Source: a virus. From it: a DNA stretch of 22,217 bases. Below are positions 10,880-22,217 of this stretch, piece by piece. The stretch lies in the IMG/VR virus record IMGVR_UViG_3300009700_000008, positions 1 through 22,217 of that record; one strand, written 5' to 3'. Position numbers and translations under genes: made by a program. The notes beneath the pieces are model-generated. The model was not told the origin of the DNA. It worked only from the letters and a program-made list of their open reading frames with translations, and did not search any database. Every line of letters starts with the position of its first letter. Within the stretch, counting starts at the first letter, position 1.

Positions 10880-12958
10880 TTACAGTTGTGCGTAGACGCC
10901 AATGACCAGACTTTGAACCGCTCCCGCCGTAGTAATTGCGCAGTAGATAGGCATCGCCTTACCAGCCGCCCGGTCGTTAGACGACTGCTGACTATAGGGC
11001 TGCGCCTGGTTCAAGTAGCCGCCTGGTATAGCTTGGCCATCTACCAGTTGGACGCCCGGTATGTTAATTGTCACGCCTTCCCAAATACCGTCAGCCAAGA
11101 ATCCAATTGTCGCAGATTGCGCGCAAGCATTATTAGCCGCTTGAATCAGCTTATGCTCGTCAGAATTGGTTTGGCCCACTACCGGGTTGCCAGTAAGCAC
11201 CGCCATCTCCTCCAGCTGCAAGAAGCTAACCAGCATAGCCAGGTTCAGCCAAAGATAGCTAGGTATGCCGTTAGACATAAAGCCCGGCTGAACATTTTGA
11301 TACGGGCTGAAGTTAGCATAAACATTGAACCTAGCACCGACAATGTTTGTATACTGCGTTTGGGATAGTGGCTCTGGCGCAATACCTATGATGGACTTAT
11401 AAGCCACCGTAAAGAAGCTACTGGCCAACCCGGTATTCAGCCCCATTTCTACGCCCATCAACCCCGCCGCCGCGTAAATATTGTTGGGGTACAAACCGCT
11501 CTGCGTCGTAGCGTAGATGCCCAGTACCCGCAGCTTAAGTGCTTGCAACTGCAGCGCAACATTGCCGACCACCCCGTTAGCAATATTAACGTTGCTGGAC
11601 CACGGATAGTAGCGCGTTGTTTGCCACAGCGAATCAGCCCACTCACTAATGGCTAAGTTGTCCGCGTCTGCCGGGTTGTTGACAGCCAGCCCGTACCAAG
11701 TAGTACTTGCCAAGCGGCAAGCCTGACTGGCTTGAAGCAAAGACTCGCCAGCCGTTATGTTTACCGTTAGCCCGCTGCCAGCGCCACCGCTTACACTAAG
11801 TCCGGTAGCCGTTGAGTAACCGGTGCCCTGAGTGCCCGGTACCGTACCCAACGTCAATGCCTGCCCAGCTTCGCCCACCGTCAGCACCGTAAGGTAGCCG
11901 TAACTAGCGTTAGTCTGCGCCACAAGTACTACATCACCAGCCTTGTAGCCATGGCCCACAGCACCAATACTAGTCTGCGCCGCCGTCACGCTGGTTAAGC
12001 AACTGGCAGCCAACACAGCCACATCCGTACTTGTCACGGAAGCGATAGTGGTTACCAAGTCTGCACCCGCCGTACCAGCGCCTGCCACGCGGATGACGGC
12101 CCCTACATCGCCAGCTTGGAAATTCGCCATCAGTGAAGCAAGGAAAGTATGGGCCGTGGTAGTAGACATGACGCCGTCAGACGCCGATCGACCAATGGTC
12201 ACCTCAGCACCAGACACCGTGGTAAGACAGGGGCTGTTGAGCACTGCCTCTGTACCACTGTTGATAGATTGGATGGTCGTAACCAGGTCCACGCCAAGCG
12301 CACCGGCGCCAGCTACGATGACCGTTTTGCCGATATCAGCCGAGACAAAGGCCGCCGTTGCAGAATCCAAATACGTTGGGTTGACGCTAGACGACATATC
12401 ACCGTCAGCCACAGCTCGCCCGATGACCACCTTAGCGGCAGTCACGCTGGTGGCACAACTTGCAGTGAGCACCACTACAAAGCCGTTTATCACGGACGCA
12501 ATAGTCGTATTGAGGTCCGCCGCGCCCACGCCTGCGCCCTTCACCGTTATTGCTGCACCGACATCAGCAGCGGTAAAAGCCGCCGTGGCCGATACCAGAT
12601 AGGCCGCGCTAGCCGTAACCGACATCACGCCGTCATTAACCGTGCGCCCATTAGGCAGGGCGCTGCCAATGGCAGTAAGGTCTTGGCGCCCGATCCAAAT
12701 GAATTGCGGGGCTGGCGTCTGGCTGAAGTAAATCTGCGCTGCGATGTACTCCGACGAATTCACCGTAAAGCCGTCCGCCAACATAGCCGTCGTGGACGGA
12801 TACTGACGAAGCCTGGGATTGACCCCATAACTCGGAATAGCGGTACTAGGCCCGACAAACAGCCCCTGATTGAACGTAGGAGCTACAACTGCGGCCGGGC
12901 TTACGGTAACACTGATGTCAACTAAGTTGCTGAGCGCCAGAGGCGGCACAGTAGACAT
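10880..12958 (-). CDS. Tail sheath protein (DUF3383) carrying an inserted repeat array
   Basis: This 692-residue protein starts at ATG 12958 with AAAGGAG upstream. Residues 1-100 (LVDISVTVSPAAVVAPTFNQ, then YIAAQIYFSQTPAPQFIWIG) and 405-692 (STTWYGLAVN..., FTVAYKSIIGIAPEPLSQTQ, GVTINIPGVQLVDGQAIPGG) are the DUF3383 sheath-like family. Between them about 300 residues are inserted: three repeats of exactly 76 residues (Asp109, Asp185 and Asp261 mark equivalent points; consensus F-x-A-x-DVG-x-x-I-x-V-x-GAG...DLVTTI) and a Gly-rich GYKAGDVVL module (333-404). Removing the insertion leaves about 390 residues, near the normal family size. The insertion probably projects from the outer surface of the sheath, because the tube-facing and contraction parts are conserved. 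Contractile tail identity rests mainly on this gene. Confidence 0.9.
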   Translation of the reverse strand: MSTVPPLALSNLVDISVTVSPAAVVAPTFNQGLFVGPSTAIPSYGVNPRLRQYPSTTAMLADGFTVNSSEYIAAQIYFSQTPAPQFIWIGRQDLTAIGSALPNGRTVNDGVMSVTASAAYLVSATAAFTAADVGAAITVKGAGVGAADLNTTIASVINGFVVVLTASCATSVTAAKVVIGRAVADGDMSSSVNPTYLDSATAAFVSADIGKTVIVAGAGALGVDLVTTIQSINSGTEAVLNSPCLTTVSGAEVTIGRSASDGVMSTTTAHTFLASLMANFQAGDVGAVIRVAGAGTAGADLVTTIASVTSTDVAVLAASCLTSVTAAQTSIGAVGHGYKAGDVVLVAQTNASYGYLTVLTVGEAGQALTLGTVPGTQGTGYSTATGLSVSGGAGSGLTVNITAGESLLQASQACRLASTTWYGLAVNNPADADNLAISEWADSLWQTTRYYPWSSNVNIANGVVGNVALQLQALKLRVLGIYATTQSGLYPNNIYAAAGLMGVEMGLNTGLASSFFTVAYKSIIGIAPEPLSQTQYTNIVGARFNVYANFSPYQNVQPGFMSNGIPSYLWLNLAMLVSFLQLEEMAVLTGNPVVGQTNSDEHKLIQAANNACAQSATIGFLADGIWEGVTINIPGVQLVDGQAIPGGYLNQAQPYSQQSSNDRAAGKAMPIYCAITTAGAVQSLVIGVYAQL
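11747..11962 (-). repeat. Gly-rich GYxxGDVL module, copy in sheath
   Basis: The unit encodes GHGYKAGDVVLVAQTN, a strand, TQGTGYSTATGLSVSGGAGS and GLTVNI (residues 333-404 of the sheath). Its partner is at 3085-3303 in baseplate J. Confidence 0.75.
11963..12646 (-). repeat. Three tandem 76-residue repeats inside the sheath gene
   Basis: Three copies begin near residues 105, 181 and 257 of the sheath protein, each about 228 bases. All share DG-x-M, AxFxAxDVG, V-x-GAG, DL-x-TTI-x-S and end in IG. Copies are alike in protein but diverged in DNA, so the duplication is not recent. Similar FTAADVGK-type units are common near the start of tail fibres and tailspikes. Confidence 0.85.
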
Positions 12959-13609: not shown

Positions 13610-14200
13610 TTAAGCAGCCGTCAACCGCGTTCCCAGCGCCTTCCAGTACCCACCACCGAAGTCGTGATAAACCTGCAGCACCCGGTACTGCAAACCCTTA
13701 TACGTCAGCACATCGCTATAAGCGGTCTGCACATCCACCGTGATAGGCCAAGTAAAATAAAGGCTGGCCCCGACCGGTGTGGCTACGTTCATGTTGATCT
13801 GCGCACCGCTTAGCGTATAGTCCAAGTTCACCGTCTGCAGCAGACCATTGACGTACAAGCTGCCAACGCCACCAGGTGGGACAGAGGTAAGATCGTAAAC
13901 CGTGCCTGGTACCACACCACCAGGCACCTCGCCGTGGACGCCAGGCACCGGGGCCGTAGCTCGCGTAAGATAGATCGGGACCGTAGCCCAGAAGGACCGG
14001 ATCGAGCCGACCCTGTCAGCCTCGGACAGCATTGCGATCTCGCGGTTACTAGCTTGTTGCACCGGACCGAAAAGCTGGAACGTAGCGGTGCTCAACGGTT
14101 GAAAGACCCCGGTCACCCACTCACCAGTGGTGCGTTGAACGGTAAACGGTTCTGGCGCGATCAGGTCCGGGTCAAGCACGACCTCCTCAACACTGATCAC
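13610..14200 (-). CDS. Head-closure-like neck protein with VPGTVY-type insertion
   Basis: This 196-residue protein starts at GTG 14200, with GGAGGAG placed ideally upstream, and is two bases from the previous stop. Residues 1-80 (FTVQRTTGEWVTGVFQP, then FQLFGPVQQASNREIAMLSE) and 156-196 (AYSDVLTYKGLQYRVLQVYH, then GGGYWKALGTRL) form one core of about 130 residues. That size and its slot between neck gene and terminator suggest a head-closure or head-tail joining protein. Residues 89-153 are an inserted beta module (GEVPGGVVPGTVYDL...YVNGLLQ...DYTLSGAQI...LYFTWPI). The same module occurs in the connector upstream and the fibre-associated protein at 968-1366. The core family is not identified with certainty. 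Confidence 0.7.
   Translation of the reverse strand: MISVEEVVLDPDLIAPEPFTVQRTTGEWVTGVFQPLSTATFQLFGPVQQASNREIAMLSEADRVGSIRSFWATVPIYLTRATAPVPGVHGEVPGGVVPGTVYDLTSVPPGGVGSLYVNGLLQTVNLDYTLSGAQINMNVATPVGASLYFTWPITVDVQTAYSDVLTYKGLQYRVLQVYHDFGGGYWKALGTRLTAA
13742..13936 (-). repeat. VPGTVY module, copy in head-closure-like protein
   Basis: This unit encodes GEVPGGVVPGTVYDL, YVNGLLQTVNLDYTLSG and ASLYFTWPI, aligned position by position with the connector copy. It splits the protein core between residues 88 and 154. Confidence 0.85.
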
Positions 14201-14756: not shown

Positions 14757-14905
14757 AGGGATTTCTTTTCCGCAGGTGGCAGCGCCTTACCGCACTTACT
14801 GCAGACCGTAGCACCCAGCTGATACGGGTAGCCGCAGGTATAACGCCAAGGGTAGTACGGTATGTCCGTAATGTTAGGGCAGCGTAACACCAACTGAACT
14901 GTCAT
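14753..14905 (-). CDS. Small zinc-ribbon-like protein
   Basis: This 50-residue protein starts at ATG 14905, overlapping the connector's TGA as TGATG; upstream starts would run deep into the connector gene. Cysteines in LRCPNI, YTCGYP and VCSKCGKALP could bind zinc, with the final CSKCG being a clear knuckle. It sits between connector and neck genes with couplings at both ends, so it is probably translated. Its family is unknown to me. Roles could be assembly helper or minor neck part. Confidence 0.65.
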   Translation of the reverse strand: MTVQLVLRCPNITDIPYYPWRYTCGYPYQLGATVCSKCGKALPPAEKKSL

Positions 14906-15894
14906 CACCAGATCACCATCGGCCCGCTGCCGATCACCCGGGCCATCGTAGCCAACGTCTGGCCATAGCGAGTAAGGTTCCAAGCACCCCAATCCTTCAA
15001 TGATTCAAGCACCTGATAACCGACACTTACGTCACCAACGCTCTTCGAGGTCTGGATGCCACCGGCCAAACCTTGTGCTGCGATGGCCGCCCCACTTACC
15101 GGTGACACTGAGGTGAACGTCTGCTGTTGCACCGGCCAGGTGACGTACAACTTGGCACCACCAGGTGTGGCCACCGCAAAGGTGATCTGATTCCCGACCA
15201 ACGTGTAATCCACGCCAGGAACCTGGAACACACCGTTGACGGTAAGTGACTGAAGCGAACCACCAGGCGGCGCACCGCTTAACGCGTAGACCGTACCCGG
15301 AACCGTACCCACCGGTATCTCACCGTGGATGGCCGTCATCAGCTGACTGAGCACCTCGGTGGCATCACTTTGCGCGTACAGGGTAAGGTAATGTGCGATG
15401 AACAAGCCCATCCCAACCAGCCATTGTTCCTGCCACCGTGCGAACTGCAAGCTGGCGTAGGCCAGGTTCAAATAAAGCTGGATCACCGTCATCGGAACTG
15501 GTGGTGACTGGTACACCTGCAGTGCAATGATGCCACTAACGGTGGCGACGTTGTTCACCGTAATCGTGTTATTGCCCAAACCGGTAACGACCGTTCCTGG
15601 CGGAAAATTTTGTGACCGCAAGAACTGGCCGAGGACGAAGCCGGTCAAGCTAGGTACGACGATCGTGCTTGATCCGGCCACCGTTACGCAGTTGGCAACC
15701 GTCGTCGGCAAACCAAAGAACTTTGGGTGGAAGCTCAAAAAGTCATCCAGTGCGTAGGGTGGGTTCTGCCCGAAGACGAGATTGGTGCCGGCGTTGATCA
15801 GGCTACCAGGACCGGCAGACCAAAACTCCTGCCCGGCCCCCCAGGCGGTCTGGAGCCACGCTTGAAAGTTGGGCCAGGTGTTCCAATTACCCAC
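14905..15894 (-). CDS. DUF4054 head-tail connector with two inserted modules
   Basis: I place the start at GTG 15894 (329 residues) because AAGGAG ends seven bases upstream; GTG 15912 would put that SD inside the gene. The core matches DUF4054 connectors: LDDFLSFHPKFFGLPTT, then IQLYLNLAYASLQFARWQEQ and GLFIAHYLTLYAQSD, and the late KSVGDVSVGYQVLESLKDWG and NLTRYGQTLATMARV. Two modules interrupt it: a GTVVTGLGNNTITV-type beta unit (about residues 69-127) between the first two core segments, and a VPGTVY unit (about 191-255) between the LYAQSD helix and the end of the core. Family members are usually near 140 residues; this one is far larger because of these insertions and linkers. The protein would form the ring below the portal. 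Confidence 0.85.
   Translation of the reverse strand: MGNWNTWPNFQAWLQTAWGAGQEFWSAGPGSLINAGTNLVFGQNPPYALDDFLSFHPKFFGLPTTVANCVTVAGSSTIVVPSLTGFVLGQFLRSQNFPPGTVVTGLGNNTITVNNVATVSGIIALQVYQSPPVPMTVIQLYLNLAYASLQFARWQEQWLVGMGLFIAHYLTLYAQSDATEVLSQLMTAIHGEIPVGTVPGTVYALSGAPPGGSLQSLTVNGVFQVPGVDYTLVGNQITFAVATPGGAKLYVTWPVQQQTFTSVSPVSGAAIAAQGLAGGIQTSKSVGDVSVGYQVLESLKDWGAWNLTRYGQTLATMARVIGSGPMVIW
15130..15324 (-). repeat. VPGTVY module, copy in connector
   Basis: This unit encodes about 65 residues: GEIPVGTVPGTVYALSGAPP, then SLTVNGVFQVPGVDYTLVG and NQITFAVATPGGAKLYVTWP. The other copies lie at 13742-13936 and 974-1171. The DNA has diverged, while the protein skeleton is clear. Confidence 0.85.
15514..15690 (-). 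repeat. GSGIP-type beta module, copy in connector
   Basis: The unit encodes VAGSSTIVVPSLTGFVLGQF, then FPPGTVVTGLGNNTITVNN and TVSGIIALQV. It follows the common scheme strand, G-x-GIPPGT-V, N-TITL-N-A-T, strand. Related copies are at 17724-17900 and 601-768. Confidence 0.7.
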
Positions 15895-15915
15895 GATGCG
15901 GCTCCTTTCCACCTT

Positions 15916-16526: not shown

Positions 16527-17603
16527 TTAGATTCCATCCGCGTAGAGCATCGTGGTGGTCCGCTTGAAGATCACCTGTCCGATGCAGCCCACGTAGGCTG
16601 TCTCGTAGGCGCCACCGGCGCGGGTGGTGGGAACGGTCATGGCCTTGGTCATCACCTGGGGAATGCGGAGATACAAGGACTTCTTGCTGTTCTTGTAAAA
16701 CACCCCGCGGTCCAGGCCGTTACCAAGTTGACCCACCGGTGAGGAGTTGCCGTAACCCTGACCGGTGATCCAGGGATTTGGTAACGAGTTGATCTTGAAG
16801 GCCACACCATGATGCGGTGCGACGCAGTTCTTCTCCACGTACTCGATGATGGACATCGCCACAGGCACGCCGGCAATAGCCTGCGGCTGAGTGAGAACGG
16901 CAAACTGCGCGTAGGGTATGAGCAAGCGGTCAGCCATGCCCTCCTGCGCCGCGTAGCCGCTGTTCTCCACGGTGTTGTTAAGAGCCGTGTTGATATCCGT
17001 GAGAATTTCACCGGGTGTCTTCTTGGCCCACGTAGTGAAGGTGCTCGCCCCCGCCGGCACGACGGTGGAAGGCACGTAGGGATTGTTGATCAGCGCGGCG
17101 CCGCCCAGGAATCCTGCATAAGTGACGAAGTCCAGAGCCTTGACCCAGTTGGTCTCGACCGCGTTCTCGTACAGCTCCTGCAGACTGAAGGGTGGTGCCT
17201 GGCCGGTGCGGGTTGCGAACTCCATGCGCTGGAGGTCCACCCAAGTAATGGTGATGCCCATGGCCCAGATGTACGTGTTCCAGATGCCCTTCTGGATGTC
17301 GGCTTGCGCCTCAGGCAGTTCGGTGTTGTTGGTTCCTTGGAGGCCATAGAACTGTGTGCCCGTGGTGCCATAGTTGCTGGCCCACGCACTGAGGAACTGC
17401 GGGAAGCCGCCGCCCGTCTCCACCGTGATGTCCCGGGGATGAGTGACGGCCTGCAGCGGTTCTACCAGGTCCGTGTCGATGAGCTCCAGTTGGCTCTGAA
17501 GGAAGGCCATGCCGGAAGCGCCCGCAGCGTCGAACGCCTGCGCACGATTCCCGCCCGGATATCCGTAAGAGCCACGAGTAGGTTCAAGCATTTTACGTGT
17601 CAT
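16527..17603 (-). CDS. Major capsid protein (DUF2184 / PF09950 family)
   Basis: This 358-residue protein starts at ATG 17603 with AGGAGA upstream. Its pattern is that of DUF2184 capsid proteins (HK97 fold): FLQSQLELIDTDLVEPLQAV, a conserved WASNYGTTGTQFYG, then AQADIQKGIWNTYIWAMGIT and the segment TWVDLQRMEF. The helix LQELYENAVETNWVKALDFV, GYAAQEGMADRLLIPYAQFA and the final VPTTRAGGAYETAYVGCIGQ also fit. The protein has little or no removable N-terminal scaffold, so the neighbouring scaffold-like gene should serve that need. The gene lies between cement and connector-side genes. This is one of the surest calls. Confidence 0.92.
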   Translation of the reverse strand: MTRKMLEPTRGSYGYPGGNRAQAFDAAGASGMAFLQSQLELIDTDLVEPLQAVTHPRDITVETGGGFPQFLSAWASNYGTTGTQFYGLQGTNNTELPEAQADIQKGIWNTYIWAMGITITWVDLQRMEFATRTGQAPPFSLQELYENAVETNWVKALDFVTYAGFLGGAALINNPYVPSTVVPAGASTFTTWAKKTPGEILTDINTALNNTVENSGYAAQEGMADRLLIPYAQFAVLTQPQAIAGVPVAMSIIEYVEKNCVAPHHGVAFKINSLPNPWITGQGYGNSSPVGQLGNGLDRGVFYKNSKKSLYLRIPQVMTKAMTVPTTRAGGAYETAYVGCIGQVIFKRTTTMLYADGI

Positions 17604-18440: not shown

Positions 18441-19403
18441 CTACTTACCTCCCTTTGCGCGCTCATCGTAGTACGCTTGCACCTTTTCATCGCGCGTTGA
18501 CTGGCCGCTGCGCGCATCTGCCGCACGGCGGCGGTTAAGGTTGGGGTCCGTGCCCACGCTGCGATCACGTGCACGTGCACCGTCAGCAAAGGCGCCGTAA
18601 CTACCGGTCGTGGCCCGGCTACGACGGCGCAGTGTGCCCAGCGCGGTGTTGAACGCCCGCCGTACCGCCTGATCGTTGCTCCGAGCCACGAAGGGCCGAA
18701 GCATCTTCAGGGTCGCGGCTATGCCGTCGGCCGCACGAGCGCGGTCGTCAGCCCTGGCCCTGGGCTTACGGTCTGTGCAGCCACAGGCTGGGCAAGCCTC
18801 CTCGTCGTGGGCCGTGCCACAGTGCGCGCACTCCATCCCACCTTCCGAGGCGTCCTCGAGTGTGGCCTCACCGGATTCCAGGACCTTCTCCCCTGGTTGG
18901 GCCTCGGTGTCATGCCCGCGATCTTCAGCGTCCGGTTCCTCACCGGCACCGAGCAGCTCTTCGAGCTCGGCCGGATCGGCGTCCTCTTCCTGATGCTCAG
19001 GCTCGCCCTGCTCCTCGGTGAGAAGCTGGTCAAGCAGTCCACGTAGCGCCGGGATGTCGGTGTCCCGGCCACGCCGCCCACCCATGGCGTCGAGCAGGGT
19101 GTCCAGCGCATCGTGAGCAGCCTTCCGTTTGTCGTCGGTACGACGGTCATCTGACGGCCCCTGGTCCTGATCCACCGGGTCCATCTCGGGTGCGTCCTTA
19201 CCACGATGACGGTCGCGGCTGGTTGTAGTTTCAAACAGGTCCGGGCTGGTATCCCGGACCCTGTCACGGGTATGGCGGTCATCACTCTCGGCTGGAGGCA
19301 CCTGGTTGACAGCCTCAGCCGCCTCCGCCAACTTCTCTGGCTCTGCGTCGGTCGCGTACTGCTTAAGTCCCAGACCGAGTAGGTGCTTCAAGATGTTTGA
19401 CAC
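18441..19403 (-). CDS. Nested in-frame scaffold product (candidate)
   Basis: Within the protease gene, GTG 19403 has AAGGAG (19413-19418) nine bases upstream. Translation from it gives 320 residues starting VSNILKHLLGLGLKQY, exactly at the junction between protease domain linker and scaffold tail. Protease genes with an overlapping scaffold start are known (lambda C/Nu3). The start is well placed and its SD is better than that of many full genes here. Expression cannot be proved from sequence. Confidence 0.55.
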   Translation of the reverse strand: MSNILKHLLGLGLKQYATDAEPEKLAEAAEAVNQVPPAESDDRHTRDRVRDTSPDLFETTTSRDRHRGKDAPEMDPVDQDQGPSDDRRTDDKRKAAHDALDTLLDAMGGRRGRDTDIPALRGLLDQLLTEEQGEPEHQEEDADPAELEELLGAGEEPDAEDRGHDTEAQPGEKVLESGEATLEDASEGGMECAHCGTAHDEEACPACGCTDRKPRARADDRARAADGIAATLKMLRPFVARSNDQAVRRAFNTALGTLRRRSRATTGSYGAFADGARARDRSVGTDPNLNRRRAADARSGQSTRDEKVQAYYDERAKGGK

Positions 19404-20144
19404 GGGTTGCTTCTCCTTCTTCAAGGCGGTGGTTAATGGTGCGGTTGAGACGGACAACGATGCCGTCCCAGCATCTACGACAGGCTGGTCCGGCGGCGGT
19501 GACTCGGTAGTCGGTCTGGCGGCGGCATCCATGATCCGGACGTCATCACCAGCCCGACCCTTGGGAACGACGGCAAGGTGGTTACCAACCATGCCGACCT
19601 GCAAGATCTTATCGCCATCCTTGGCGATGCTGTAGTCGTAGCCCAGCGAGTTCTCACGGGCAAGCTTGTCCCGCACTTTCGCAACCAGCGGCTCACCGGA
19701 GATCACCAGGTCGGCAAGCAACGGCCAATCGCCAGAGGGCAGCGGCTCATCACCGCGGTGAACGTTCTGGATGTGACCCTTGGCGTACTGGTTGAAGGTG
19801 CCGGGCGTGATCCAGCTCGGAGGATGGTTGTCGCAGATGGGCCTGCCCTCTAGCGAGGCTATGAACTCAGGGGCGAAGACCTCTTCCTCGGGCCGATAGA
19901 GGTCGATGTTGGCGCTAGGATTGGACAGATCGACGCCCAACCGCCGCGCCGCCTCCTGGGGAAGGTCGCGAACCGCGTATTGCTGCCACCCGGTCCTGGC
20001 GATAGGACAGTTCTCGATCACCAGGCTGCCGTCATCCATTTGCCGGATGTTATCGGTCAGGGGCGAGGCCAGGTAGCCGTGGCCGGTGATCTCCAGGCTG
20101 TCGTCCTCGCTGGGGCCGACGTCAAACGCTAGGGTCTTAGGCAT
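18441..20144 (-). CDS. DUF2213 head maturation protease with scaffold-like C-terminus
   Basis: This 567-residue protein starts at ATG 20144 with AAGGA ten bases upstream. Residues 1-205 match DUF2213: NCPIARTGWQQY (45-56), then GRPICDNHPPSWITPG (100-115, with His107 a likely catalytic residue), and ENSLGYDYSIAKDG (164-177, Ser166), then GNHLAVVPKGRAG. From about 245 the protein is charged and largely disordered or helical, with an acidic block (376-415) and a late zinc-ribbon (Cys439, Cys442, Cys451, Cys454). Such tails act as scaffold for the prohead and are removed by the protease. An in-frame internal start at 19403 could give the tail alone. GKDA (315-318) matches the linkers of the gene upstream. 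The DUF2213 name is firm; catalytic residues are inferred. Confidence 0.88.
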   Translation of the reverse strand: MPKTLAFDVGPSEDDSLEITGHGYLASPLTDNIRQMDDGSLVIENCPIARTGWQQYAVRDLPQEAARRLGVDLSNPSANIDLYRPEEEVFAPEFIASLEGRPICDNHPPSWITPGTFNQYAKGHIQNVHRGDEPLPSGDWPLLADLVISGEPLVAKVRDKLARENSLGYDYSIAKDGDKILQVGMVGNHLAVVPKGRAGDDVRIMDAAARPTTESPPPDQPVVDAGTASLSVSTAPLTTALKKEKQPVSNILKHLLGLGLKQYATDAEPEKLAEAAEAVNQVPPAESDDRHTRDRVRDTSPDLFETTTSRDRHRGKDAPEMDPVDQDQGPSDDRRTDDKRKAAHDALDTLLDAMGGRRGRDTDIPALRGLLDQLLTEEQGEPEHQEEDADPAELEELLGAGEEPDAEDRGHDTEAQPGEKVLESGEATLEDASEGGMECAHCGTAHDEEACPACGCTDRKPRARADDRARAADGIAATLKMLRPFVARSNDQAVRRAFNTALGTLRRRSRATTGSYGAFADGARARDRSVGTDPNLNRRRAADARSGQSTRDEKVQAYYDERAKGGK

Positions 20145-20162: not shown

Positions 20163-22217
20163 TCAAAATGATGGGCTGTAGATGCAATCGGTGGCAGGGG
20201 AGGCGTCCTTCGCCGGAACCAATGAATCTTCGTTCCAATAGCGGCCTTCGACTTTGTACCGTGTCGGCCCGCCGTTCGGATCGTATCGAATATGCGTGAT
20301 CTTACCGAAAATCTCCAGACCTCTAACCTTGACTCGCTCGCCAATCTCAAATTTGCCAACGTCTTTCACCCTTCCAGCGACACTTTTCTTTGCCAGGCCC
20401 GCGGCGCCATACTTCTTCCTGCCGATGGAGGCGACTAGCGCGGCCGGGTCGGAGACACCTTTGCGGTGGGCGAGGGAGCGCTCCAGTTTCTGGAAACCCT
20501 CGTGCTCGTCGTGTGCCGGGCGAATATCTTTGGCGTATTTACCGTTCTTAAGATACGCCGTATACGATCTGGTCGGGGTCTCAGCCGTGTGCCAGTCCGG
20601 CGTCGACTCCCCACCTAGTGAATTAATCGCATTGCAAACGCGCGTGATCTGTGCCGGGTTAGTGCTATAGTTGCCACGACATCCGCACATGCAACCAGGT
20701 TTGCCAGAATACACCCGGCTTACTTCTTTGGGATTGACAACGTCCCTCACCTCTACCGGTTCCAGTCCGTCGGCCACTCCGCCCTCCGCTCTCAGGTCCT
20801 CGTTCCGGACCGCCGTGCCGTGCTCGTCCCCGTTGAACCTCACCACCGTCCAGCTGGCGCCGGCGGTGACGACAACGCCGTGCTTCCCCAGGTGCTTCCC
20901 AGCGACGGCCTGGACCCGGGCGCCCTCGGAGGCGTCCTTCGCCGGTTTTGTCACGATAACGGTAACACCTTTGCGCCCACCGAGTTCATACCCGGTGCTA
21001 CGCCTGACAGTCACCGTCAAGCCTTGCTTCTTTGCAGCGTCGATAAAATCGTGCGGATAATCGCCTGCCACGAAATCATATTCACCAGGCTCTATCTTCA
21101 TAGTGTCCTTCGCTGGTGAAGGGTACACGCCATTAGGATCAAACTCCGCGCGAAGACTTTTCAACGCGCGCATTGCCTCAGCCCTGTTTGTAATATGCTC
21201 ACAGAGTATCTCACCAGCCTGTTTAATCAAAAACTCAGTTCCAGCATTGTTTGAGTACAGCATCACGCGACCCTTTGGGATATCAACGTAAACGCCCTTA
21301 GCAACCTTGCGTAAGGTGTCAGCGTCCTTCCCAAAGCTCAGCCCCAGCTTCTGGAAGCCCTCGCGCTCATCGTGTGCCGGGCGAATATCGTGGACCCGGG
21401 CGCCCTCGGAGGCGTCCTTTGCCTTCTTGAAACCTTCTTGTTTCGCCTTCCAGTATTCGTAATCGGCAATGGCAACCGGTGAGTGATTGGGATGTGACTT
21501 ACACTCCAGGCACCTATTACACGGTTGATTTCGACGATTGCCAGGCATTGGCGCAAACTTGTGCGGCACGGTGTCCTTCCCGAATGCCTTACCCAGCTCC
21601 TTCATCGTGTGCGGCCGGTAGATCTCACCGGCCCGCTCCGGGGAGAGGAACGCCGGGCCGGTGAGGGGCCGCGGCCTGGACGGCGGTGGCGCGTACTTGG
21701 GCTCGGCGTCGGAGGCGGTGGGAACCGGCTCCAGGGAGTCGTCGTGGCCGTACTTCCGCCGGTCGCAGACGACGCAGTAACCGGGCCGCCGCGGGCTGTC
21801 CACGTAGGGGTGGGAGGCGGCGTCCTTGGCGAGGGGGACTGAGGAGAGAGCGTCAAAACTGTGCTTGATGCCATGCTCGCGCCGTAGAAAGGTCTGAGCA
21901 GCCTCCGGCGTCCCATCGAACTTCTTTATACCATTGACTTTGACGATCACCCGACCATGACTTCCTTCAAGACCGCGGTACTCAACCTCGATATGCGGCT
22001 TCTTTGAGTTTGCGCCGGGCACGTACTCCTTGACCGTACCCTTATAGTATCCCTCACGATCTGGTTTATCGTAGGTGACTGGCGTGTAACGATCGGCGTC
22101 ACCGACGGGGACCGGAGCTGGGAGGGCGTCCTTCCCCTTCTTGGGTACCCCCGCGGTGCGTAGCGCGATGGCCACGGCCTGGTCGTGCGGCTTGCCGTGG
22201 GCCTCTTCGACCTCGAT
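20163..22217 (-). CDS. Modular polyprotein-like protein with AKDA linkers, 5' end outside window
   Basis: The frame is open through the right edge; the codons before GTG 22175 read EEAHGKPHDQAVAIAL, so the true start lies outside. Numbering from 22175, nine K-D linkers (mostly AKDA, GKDA, AKDT) at about 15, 117, 200, 253, 283, 356, 413, 549 and 656 divide short unlike modules. These include a cysteine knuckle (YCVVCD, 133-138), a second one (PCNRCLEC, 218-225), a KOW/SH3-like unit (EGARVQAVAGKHLGKHGVVV, 417-436), a third cysteine cluster (PGCMCGC), the phage motif GVSDPAALVASIGRKKYGAA (573-592) and a final KOW-like unit (FEIGERVKVRGLEIFGKITH). DIRPAHDE-x-EGFQKL occurs twice. It precedes the head protease gene, where portal or internal head proteins are common. 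Function unknown: internal virion polyprotein, MuF-like fusion or DNA-binding assembly factor are options. Confidence 0.75.
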   Translation of the reverse strand: MEVEEAHGKPHDQAVAIALRTAGVPKKGKDALPAPVPVGDADRYTPVTYDKPDREGYYKGTVKEYVPGANSKKPHIEVEYRGLEGSHGRVIVKVNGIKKFDGTPEAAQTFLRREHGIKHSFDALSSVPLAKDAASHPYVDSPRRPGYCVVCDRRKYGHDDSLEPVPTASDAEPKYAPPPSRPRPLTGPAFLSPERAGEIYRPHTMKELGKAFGKDTVPHKFAPMPGNRRNQPCNRCLECKSHPNHSPVAIADYEYWKAKQEGFKKAKDASEGARVHDIRPAHDEREGFQKLGLSFGKDADTLRKVAKGVYVDIPKGRVMLYSNNAGTEFLIKQAGEILCEHITNRAEAMRALKSLRAEFDPNGVYPSPAKDTMKIEPGEYDFVAGDYPHDFIDAAKKQGLTVTVRRSTGYELGGRKGVTVIVTKPAKDASEGARVQAVAGKHLGKHGVVVTAGASWTVVRFNGDEHGTAVRNEDLRAEGGVADGLEPVEVRDVVNPKEVSRVYSGKPGCMCGCRGNYSTNPAQITRVCNAINSLGGESTPDWHTAETPTRSYTAYLKNGKYAKDIRPAHDEHEGFQKLERSLAHRKGVSDPAALVASIGRKKYGAAGLAKKSVAGRVKDVGKFEIGERVKVRGLEIFGKITHIRYDPNGGPTRYKVEGRYWNEDSLVPAKDASPATDCIYSPSF
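20488..20528 (-). repeat. 41-base direct repeat, copy 1
   Basis: Matches 21349-21389 with three differences. It encodes DIRPAHDEHEGFQK of the modular protein. The second copy has REGFQK at the variable point. Confidence 0.9.
20911..20939 (-). repeat. 29-base exact direct repeat, copy 1
   Basis: Identical to 21391-21419. It encodes the linker KDASEGARV of the modular protein. Perfect identity suggests recent copying or gene conversion. Confidence 0.92.
21349..21389 (-). repeat. 41-base direct repeat, copy 2
   Basis: Partner of 20488-20528. On the plus strand it lies directly beside the 29-base repeat copy at 21391-21419, so on the protein level linker and DIRPAHDE unit were probably copied together. 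Confidence 0.9.
21391..21419 (-). repeat. 29-base exact direct repeat, copy 2
   Basis: Partner of 20911-20939; here KDASEGARV is followed by HDIRPAHDE, whereas the other copy leads into the KOW-like unit. Confidence 0.92.

Follow-up and report, generated by a model that had tools for sequence, protein, structure and literature searches.

A modular polyprotein encoded beside a DUF2213 head protease in an uncultivated phage is probably cut into small internal proteins

The substrates of the phage T4 protease gp21, which it cuts after L/I-x-E, include capsid, scaffold and internal proteins, the last of which travel in the head and are delivered (PMC9026906). SPN3US gp245 acts at A-x-E, with Ser favoured at P1′ (PMC10052503), and phiKZ gp175 at S/A-x-E (PMC9026906). 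Polyvalent proteins, which are multi-module phage proteins proposed to enter together with the DNA, have been likened to eukaryotic viral polyproteins (Iyer et al. 2017, PMC5512222). Head proteases that cut after A-x-E or L/I-x-E, and multidomain injected proteins, are known already; a search of openly available papers yielded neither a modular polyprotein cut by a head protease nor an A-x-D rule for DUF2213 proteases.

The DNA analysed here, a 22,217-nt stretch from IMG/VR record IMGVR_UViG_3300009700_000008 (the window), belongs to an uncultivated, soil-type phage that encodes about ten small proteins in one chain which, judging by its sequence, is probably cut inside the head. As the preliminary description had stated, the gene adjoins that of the head protease, lying directly upstream of the DUF2213 gene, and its frame runs past the window edge, albeit by only 17 codons. 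The rest of the ORF was read from a near-identical 52,321-bp IMG/VR contig, G001 (L002), giving a polyprotein of 701 aa whose start, also from that contig, is MLRSMPLLKGKS = MLRSMPLLKGKSNIGHN. The arrangement resembles that of T4 gp21 with IPI-III and Alt in that a short motif with an acidic P1 is common to capsid, portal, scaffold and polyprotein. However, each T4 internal protein has a gene of its own and an N-terminal targeting peptide, whereas the window has ten modules per chain, an [AG]-x-D motif and a DUF2213 protease fused to a scaffold-like region. The form of the motif is almost identical to those of SPN3US gp245 and phiKZ gp175, with Asp rather than Glu at P1, but nearly all cuts by the giant-phage proteases remove the N-terminal propeptide of a single protein, while the joints in the window separate many unlike modules. 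Unlike polyvalent proteins, the window polyprotein has no detected enzymatic or peptidase domain, and it consists of very small modules with repeated protease-site motifs. A likeness to the polyvalent set is found in the G001 portal protein (40869-43088, minus strand, L022), with an InPase domain (PF18823, E=2.4e-30) at its C-terminus.

The polyprotein contains ten K-D dipeptides (GKDA, AKDA, GKDT, AKDA, GKDA, AKDT, AKDA, AKDI, VKDV and AKDA), in agreement with the at least nine linkers between unlike modules that had been proposed, and an in silico cut after each [AGV]KD leaves ten unlike segments, 30-136 aa long, and a tail of 13 aa (Table 1). Most segments are basic, with a pI of 8-10, and three have cysteine clusters (CVVC, CNRCLEC and CMCGC), which are the three knuckles previously noted. 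The GRKKYG unit was likewise recovered, as was the duplicated DIRPAHDE unit, which takes the form DIRPAHDE.EGFQKL and is encoded by a 49-nt DNA repeat with 90% identity. This repeat and the 33-nt repeat listed in Table 1 indicate that module ends and linkers were recently duplicated within the gene. The two KOW-like units of the preliminary description were not supported by a Pfam scan of the polyprotein, in which no family matched at E<=0.01, be it KOW or an enzymatic domain; Pfam and PHROG scans also returned no embedded peptidase domain, and no solved homologues of the polyprotein were found. The phrog_5930 domain of module 8 is a stand-alone protein in mycobacteriophages, and tblastn matched it to Mycobacterium phage proteins.

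Table 1. Features of the polyprotein locus in window coordinates (arrows mark predicted cuts; aa, residues of the protein named)
Feature	Position	Strand	Details
Polyprotein ORF	20163..22217	minus	residues 18-701 of 701 in window, stop-free; translation
Module 1 (aa 1-47, partly in window)	22128..22217	minus	phrog_2423-like, PHROG E=1.2e-9; ends GKD↓A
Module 2 (aa 48-149)	21822..22127	minus	ends LAKD↓A
Module 3 (aa 150-232)	21573..21821	minus	CVVC cluster; ends FGKD↓T
Module 4 (aa 233-285)	21414..21572	minus	CNRCLEC cluster; ends KAKD↓A
Module 5 (aa 286-315)	21324..21413	minus	short ASEGARVH-DIRPAHD-EREGFQKL element; DNA repeats D3/D4; ends FGKD↓A
Module 6 (aa 316-388)	21105..21323	minus	ends PAKD↓T
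Module 7 (aa 389-445)	20934..21104	minus	ends PAKD↓A
Module 8 (aa 446-581)	20526..20933	minus	phrog_5930 domain, PHROG E=1.7e-14; ends YAKD↓I
Module 9 (aa 582-636)	20361..20525	minus	EGFQKL...GRKKYG...AGR unit, recurs in other polyproteins; ends RVKD↓V
Module 10 (aa 637-688)	20205..20360	minus	ends PAKD↓A
C-terminal tail peptide (aa 689-701)	20166..20204	minus	
33-nt direct repeat, encodes AKDASEGARV	copy 1 20911..20943, copy 2 21391-21423		97% identity
DUF2213 head maturation protease, acidic scaffold-like C-terminal half	18441..20144	minus	PF09979 E=3.8e-32; PHROG head maturation protease
GKD↓A candidate site, DUF2213 C-terminal half (aa 315-318)	19191..19202	minus	
Major capsid protein	16527..17603	minus	PF09950 E=1.1e-34
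Putative capsid maturation site AFD↓A (aa 23-26), after hypervariable extension	17526..17537	minus	

Enrichment of the linker motif was assessed in 30 dereplicated proteins of the homologous slot, with shared 12-mers masked and expectations obtained by shuffling. [AG]KD[AGST] was found 70 times in the slot proteins (4.5 expected) and 36 times in the C-terminal parts of DUF2213 proteins (5.7 expected), compared with one occurrence in the DUF2213 protease domain (1.2 expected) and none in tail proteins (4.4 expected). The reversed or substituted control motifs [AG]DK, [AG]KE, [AG]xE and [AG]xN showed no comparable excess. In the polyproteins, strong enrichment was confined to A at P3, where G was weakly enriched, and to D at P1; P1′ is mostly A, S or G. 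On contig G001, the strict form [AG]KD[AT] is limited to eight occurrences in the polyprotein, one in DUF2213 and two in another multi-module protein of the head region (45398-46864). The AKD of the linkers is encoded by 14 different 9-mers with codon usage near background, from which it follows that selection acts on the linker peptide and not on the DNA; a DNA recombination site was discarded as the cause of the linkers on the same grounds, despite the local duplication seen in two DNA repeats that contain linkers.

A capsid-protein profile search returned 61 viral contigs. Examining DUF2213 neighbours for proteins with shuffled modules, as had been suggested, revealed in about 20 of these contigs a K-D-linked mosaic protein of roughly 340-990 aa, whose gene lies immediately or nearly immediately upstream of DUF2213 and whose modules differ from contig to contig. 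Several mosaics begin with a phrog_2423-type module, as in the window, and others with a YFKGxG..VFYATANK module. Elsewhere, module 1 exists as a stand-alone protein of 52-68 aa in other phages, and the slot of the distant relatives L079 and L080 holds only a 64-aa stand-alone protein. In Aminobacter phage Erebus the slot comprises about ten separate small ORFs with no obvious sequence similarity. Acinetobacter phage LZ35 has module 1 joined to its protease ORF, with AND↓T coming after the module. Module 1 was the sole match when cultured phages were searched for polyproteins, the GRKKYG and YFKGxG modules having none in these phages, and genome contigs searched with the capsid profile and with a polyprotein module contained no relatives. 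Among close relatives, 15 of 25 module-swap breakpoints have an [AG]xD no more than 6 aa away in each of the two proteins, against 2.9 expected (p=0.0002); over all relatives, homology boundaries cluster weakly, with p about 0.001-0.01 for ends and no significance for starts. The pattern that the preliminary description had set against cleavage, namely modules kept while linkers are lost, was not seen, as [AG]xD persists at many junctions with differing neighbours.

An AlphaFold model of a relative's polyprotein (mean pLDDT 52, pTM 0.22) is compatible with beads on a string and does not address cleavage; 11 of its 13 linkers lie in low-confidence stretches, against a background of 56%. In the relative L030, some AKD sites are inside a predicted folded region, so not every site need be cut. 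The position of the linkers in such stretches, the shuffling of modules at them and the local duplication seen there as DNA repeats would also suit an internal protein that stays uncut and is packaged as a whole, in which AKD forms flexible, recombination-tolerant spacers (compare the N4 virion RNA polymerase and some polyvalent proteins). We regard this as quite improbable, since a plain spacer needs neither Asp at P1 nor Ala at P3, and would neither match the capsid and portal N-termini and the scaffold motif nor track the A/T class of the cognate protease, as set out below.

The PF09979 match of the DUF2213 protein scores 112 bits against a curated cut-off of 22, and in BFVD its structural model (pLDDT 86) was matched to proteins annotated as prohead proteases; a fold search of the model against the PDB gave nothing significant. 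The catalytic-type residues H107, S166 and H189 are invariant in 20 DUF2213 relatives, with S166 and H189 still invariant once E217 and LZ35 are added. Of the two linker-like sequences previously noted in this protein, the GKDA at 315-318 holds, whereas AKDG (174-177) is not a linker because S166 and H189 flank it and it is thus part of the conserved protease domain. An HRALD-type element, [RK]xR[LM]HxALDxx[LM]D, is present in most DUF2213 C-terminal parts, including that of the window, and in many unrelated head-region proteins, with three copies in the G001 protein at 45398-46864, and is absent from the window polyprotein. By analogy with the capsid-targeting sequences of T4 (PMC9026906), it could be a scaffold-binding or capsid-targeting tag. 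In Agathobaculum phage AB434P2 (L098/L130), the protease and the scaffold-like part appear as two genes, and the portal and capsid sites are of the A class.

The motif recurs at the N-termini of the capsid and portal proteins. Within the clade, the N-terminal extensions of the capsid protein (about 9-53 aa) are unconserved in sequence and almost all end in [AG]FD↓A, with AFD↓T, ALD↓A and VFD↓A as rare variants; capsid D25 is invariant in 18 sequences with identity down to 44%. The same Asp is found in the relatives ZF40 and Vibrio D93, which have just 6-7 residues ahead of it, and might therefore be structural. Portal proteins have A-x-D↓x[FY] after variable N-terminal extensions. A second DUF2213 clade has T-x-D at the equivalent portal, capsid and scaffold sites. 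Portal and capsid agree in class in all 24 phages compared (17/17 A/G-type and 7/7 T-type, kinship not being accounted for), and among 80 T-type loci T-x-D is present at 64 of 65 capsid and 43 of 56 portal sites, counts that likewise leave kinship in place. The scaffold parts of these 80 loci contain 170 TxD against 24.4 expected and 45 AxD against 42.8, while those of the window's clade contain 205 AxD against 52 expected and 8 TxD against 12. The polyproteins of the window's clade fall in the A class, with 111 AxD (27 expected) and 12 TxD (11 expected). That portal, capsid and scaffold, which are unrelated proteins, switch P3 in parallel is expected of the substrates of one protease and is hard to explain structurally. 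Taken with the occurrence of the motif near the N-terminus of capsid and portal proteins and in the C-terminal part of the protease itself, this parallel switch supports the earlier suggestion that the linkers may be head-protease sites. Phage 7-7-1, considered as an additional test of the capsid cut, was dropped as its protease is a Peptidase_U35.

These data also bear on which enzyme would act. Several loci, G001 among them, have just upstream a gene for a small phrog_5845 protein, which looks like a cysteine peptidase by sequence, and polyvalent proteins often bear their own peptidases (PMC5512222), so that an enzyme other than DUF2213 might cut the linkers. We consider this very unlikely: the residue class of the motif tracks the DUF2213 clade, the peptidase nature of phrog_5845 is a reading of its sequence only, and phrog_5845 proteins carry KD sites and so look like cargo. 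The gene for this protein lies between portal and polyprotein (L054:3821-4720, L021:18355-19347 and equivalents), and some versions have KD-linked stretches.

The pbunaviruses E217 and Pa193 have a similar block of portal, MuF, small module-1 gene, head maturation protease, decoration and capsid protein, with A-x-D sites at the capsid and portal N-termini. Unlike in the window, module 1 is there a separate 68-aa gene, which itself continues with TAKD↓C (E217 gp21 homologue), and there is no polyprotein. The capsid proteins of E217 (PMC10329688) and Pa193 (PMC11042391) are both resolved only from residue 66. In E217, AMD64↓S65 is the sole [AG]xD[AGST] in the first 100 capsid residues, and a start at 66, just after this site, is consistent with cleavage at head maturation. 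The portal proteins of both phages have a single [AGS]xD in their first 130 residues, AMD72↓S; the first 93 residues of the Pa193 portal were neither resolved nor detected by LC-MS (PMC11042391). The E217 authors weighed cleavage or disorder as reasons for the missing capsid residues (PMC10329688), and the motif proposal is absent from the available portions of both papers (PMC10329688, PMC11042391). Pa193 gp21 was detected in virions by LC-MS (PMC11042391), and from gene order it is likely to be the module-1 protein.

We consider it likely, from sequence comparison, that the window encodes a prohead polyprotein that is cut by the neighbouring Asp-specific, T4-type DUF2213 protease into small basic internal proteins. 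What we observed, and what this reading draws on, is the enrichment and placement of the motif, the P3 co-variation, the module mosaicism and the stand-alone homologues of module 1; cleavage, prohead entry, retention and ejection are steps that we infer. The polyprotein would be made beside, and presumably with, the DUF2213 protease-scaffold and would enter the prohead core. There the protease would cut after the Asp of A/G-x-D in the polyprotein, as it would at the capsid and portal N-termini and in its own scaffold part. The freed modules would stay with the packaged DNA and, by analogy with the T4 internal proteins, may be ejected into the host. The chain might instead be cut at the same A/G-K-D sites but serve mainly as scaffold or core, its pieces building the prohead and then being lost and not delivered. 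The polyprotein gene does adjoin the protease-scaffold gene, gp22 and gp67 of the T4 core are for the most part removed after being cut (PMC9026906), and the short HRALD element is common to DUF2213 C-termini and many head-region proteins. We nevertheless think a core role unlikely, as the modules are basic, often Cys-rich and diverse (median pI of the chain 9.3) while the scaffold part is acidic (4.7), their turnover among close relatives fits variable cargo better than core, and the likely module-1 homologue of Pa193 was found in mature virions.

A wider and more tentative proposal, to which we give somewhat less than an even chance, is that phages of this clade bring swappable sets of small host-acting proteins into the cell in the form of cleavable polyproteins. 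Modules would be acquired and traded between the protease-site linkers, the chain would be packaged together with the scaffold, and the proteins, once released by the Asp-specific DUF2213 head protease, would be injected. If so, a single gene would hold each phage's particular cassette of early effectors. A cut head polyprotein would bring to tailed-phage heads the polyprotein strategy known from RNA viruses. The co-variation further suggests that the widespread DUF2213 head proteases follow an A-x-D / T-x-D rule, from which the maturation sites of capsid and portal proteins could be predicted in hundreds of phages, pbunaviruses used in therapy among them, and the linkers may serve as a marker for otherwise anonymous small internal, possibly injected, proteins.

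Several further sequence features were seen in these genomes. In L029-L031, L034, L051, L054 and other polyproteins, LP[VL]P[VI] occurs just after a linker (17 against 1.1 expected), and REV[QL]PV recurs at the C-terminus of polyproteins from the same and other loci. On G001, the products of 45398-46864 and 48042-49037 (minus strand) are multi-module head-region proteins with KD/RD joints, the former containing RRARLHRALDSVLDARRGRARDA-type segments in three repeats. The tail sheath of the window (10880-12958, minus strand) has three tandem pectin-lyase-like inserts of ~80 aa (phrog_32881, three stretches) and is 692 aa long, compared with 473-542 aa in the relatives L026 and L028. Finally, the unit GTVPGTVY.L...VNG...DYTL is shared by three otherwise unrelated virion ORFs on the minus strand of the window, at 968-1366, 13610-14200 and 14905-15912.
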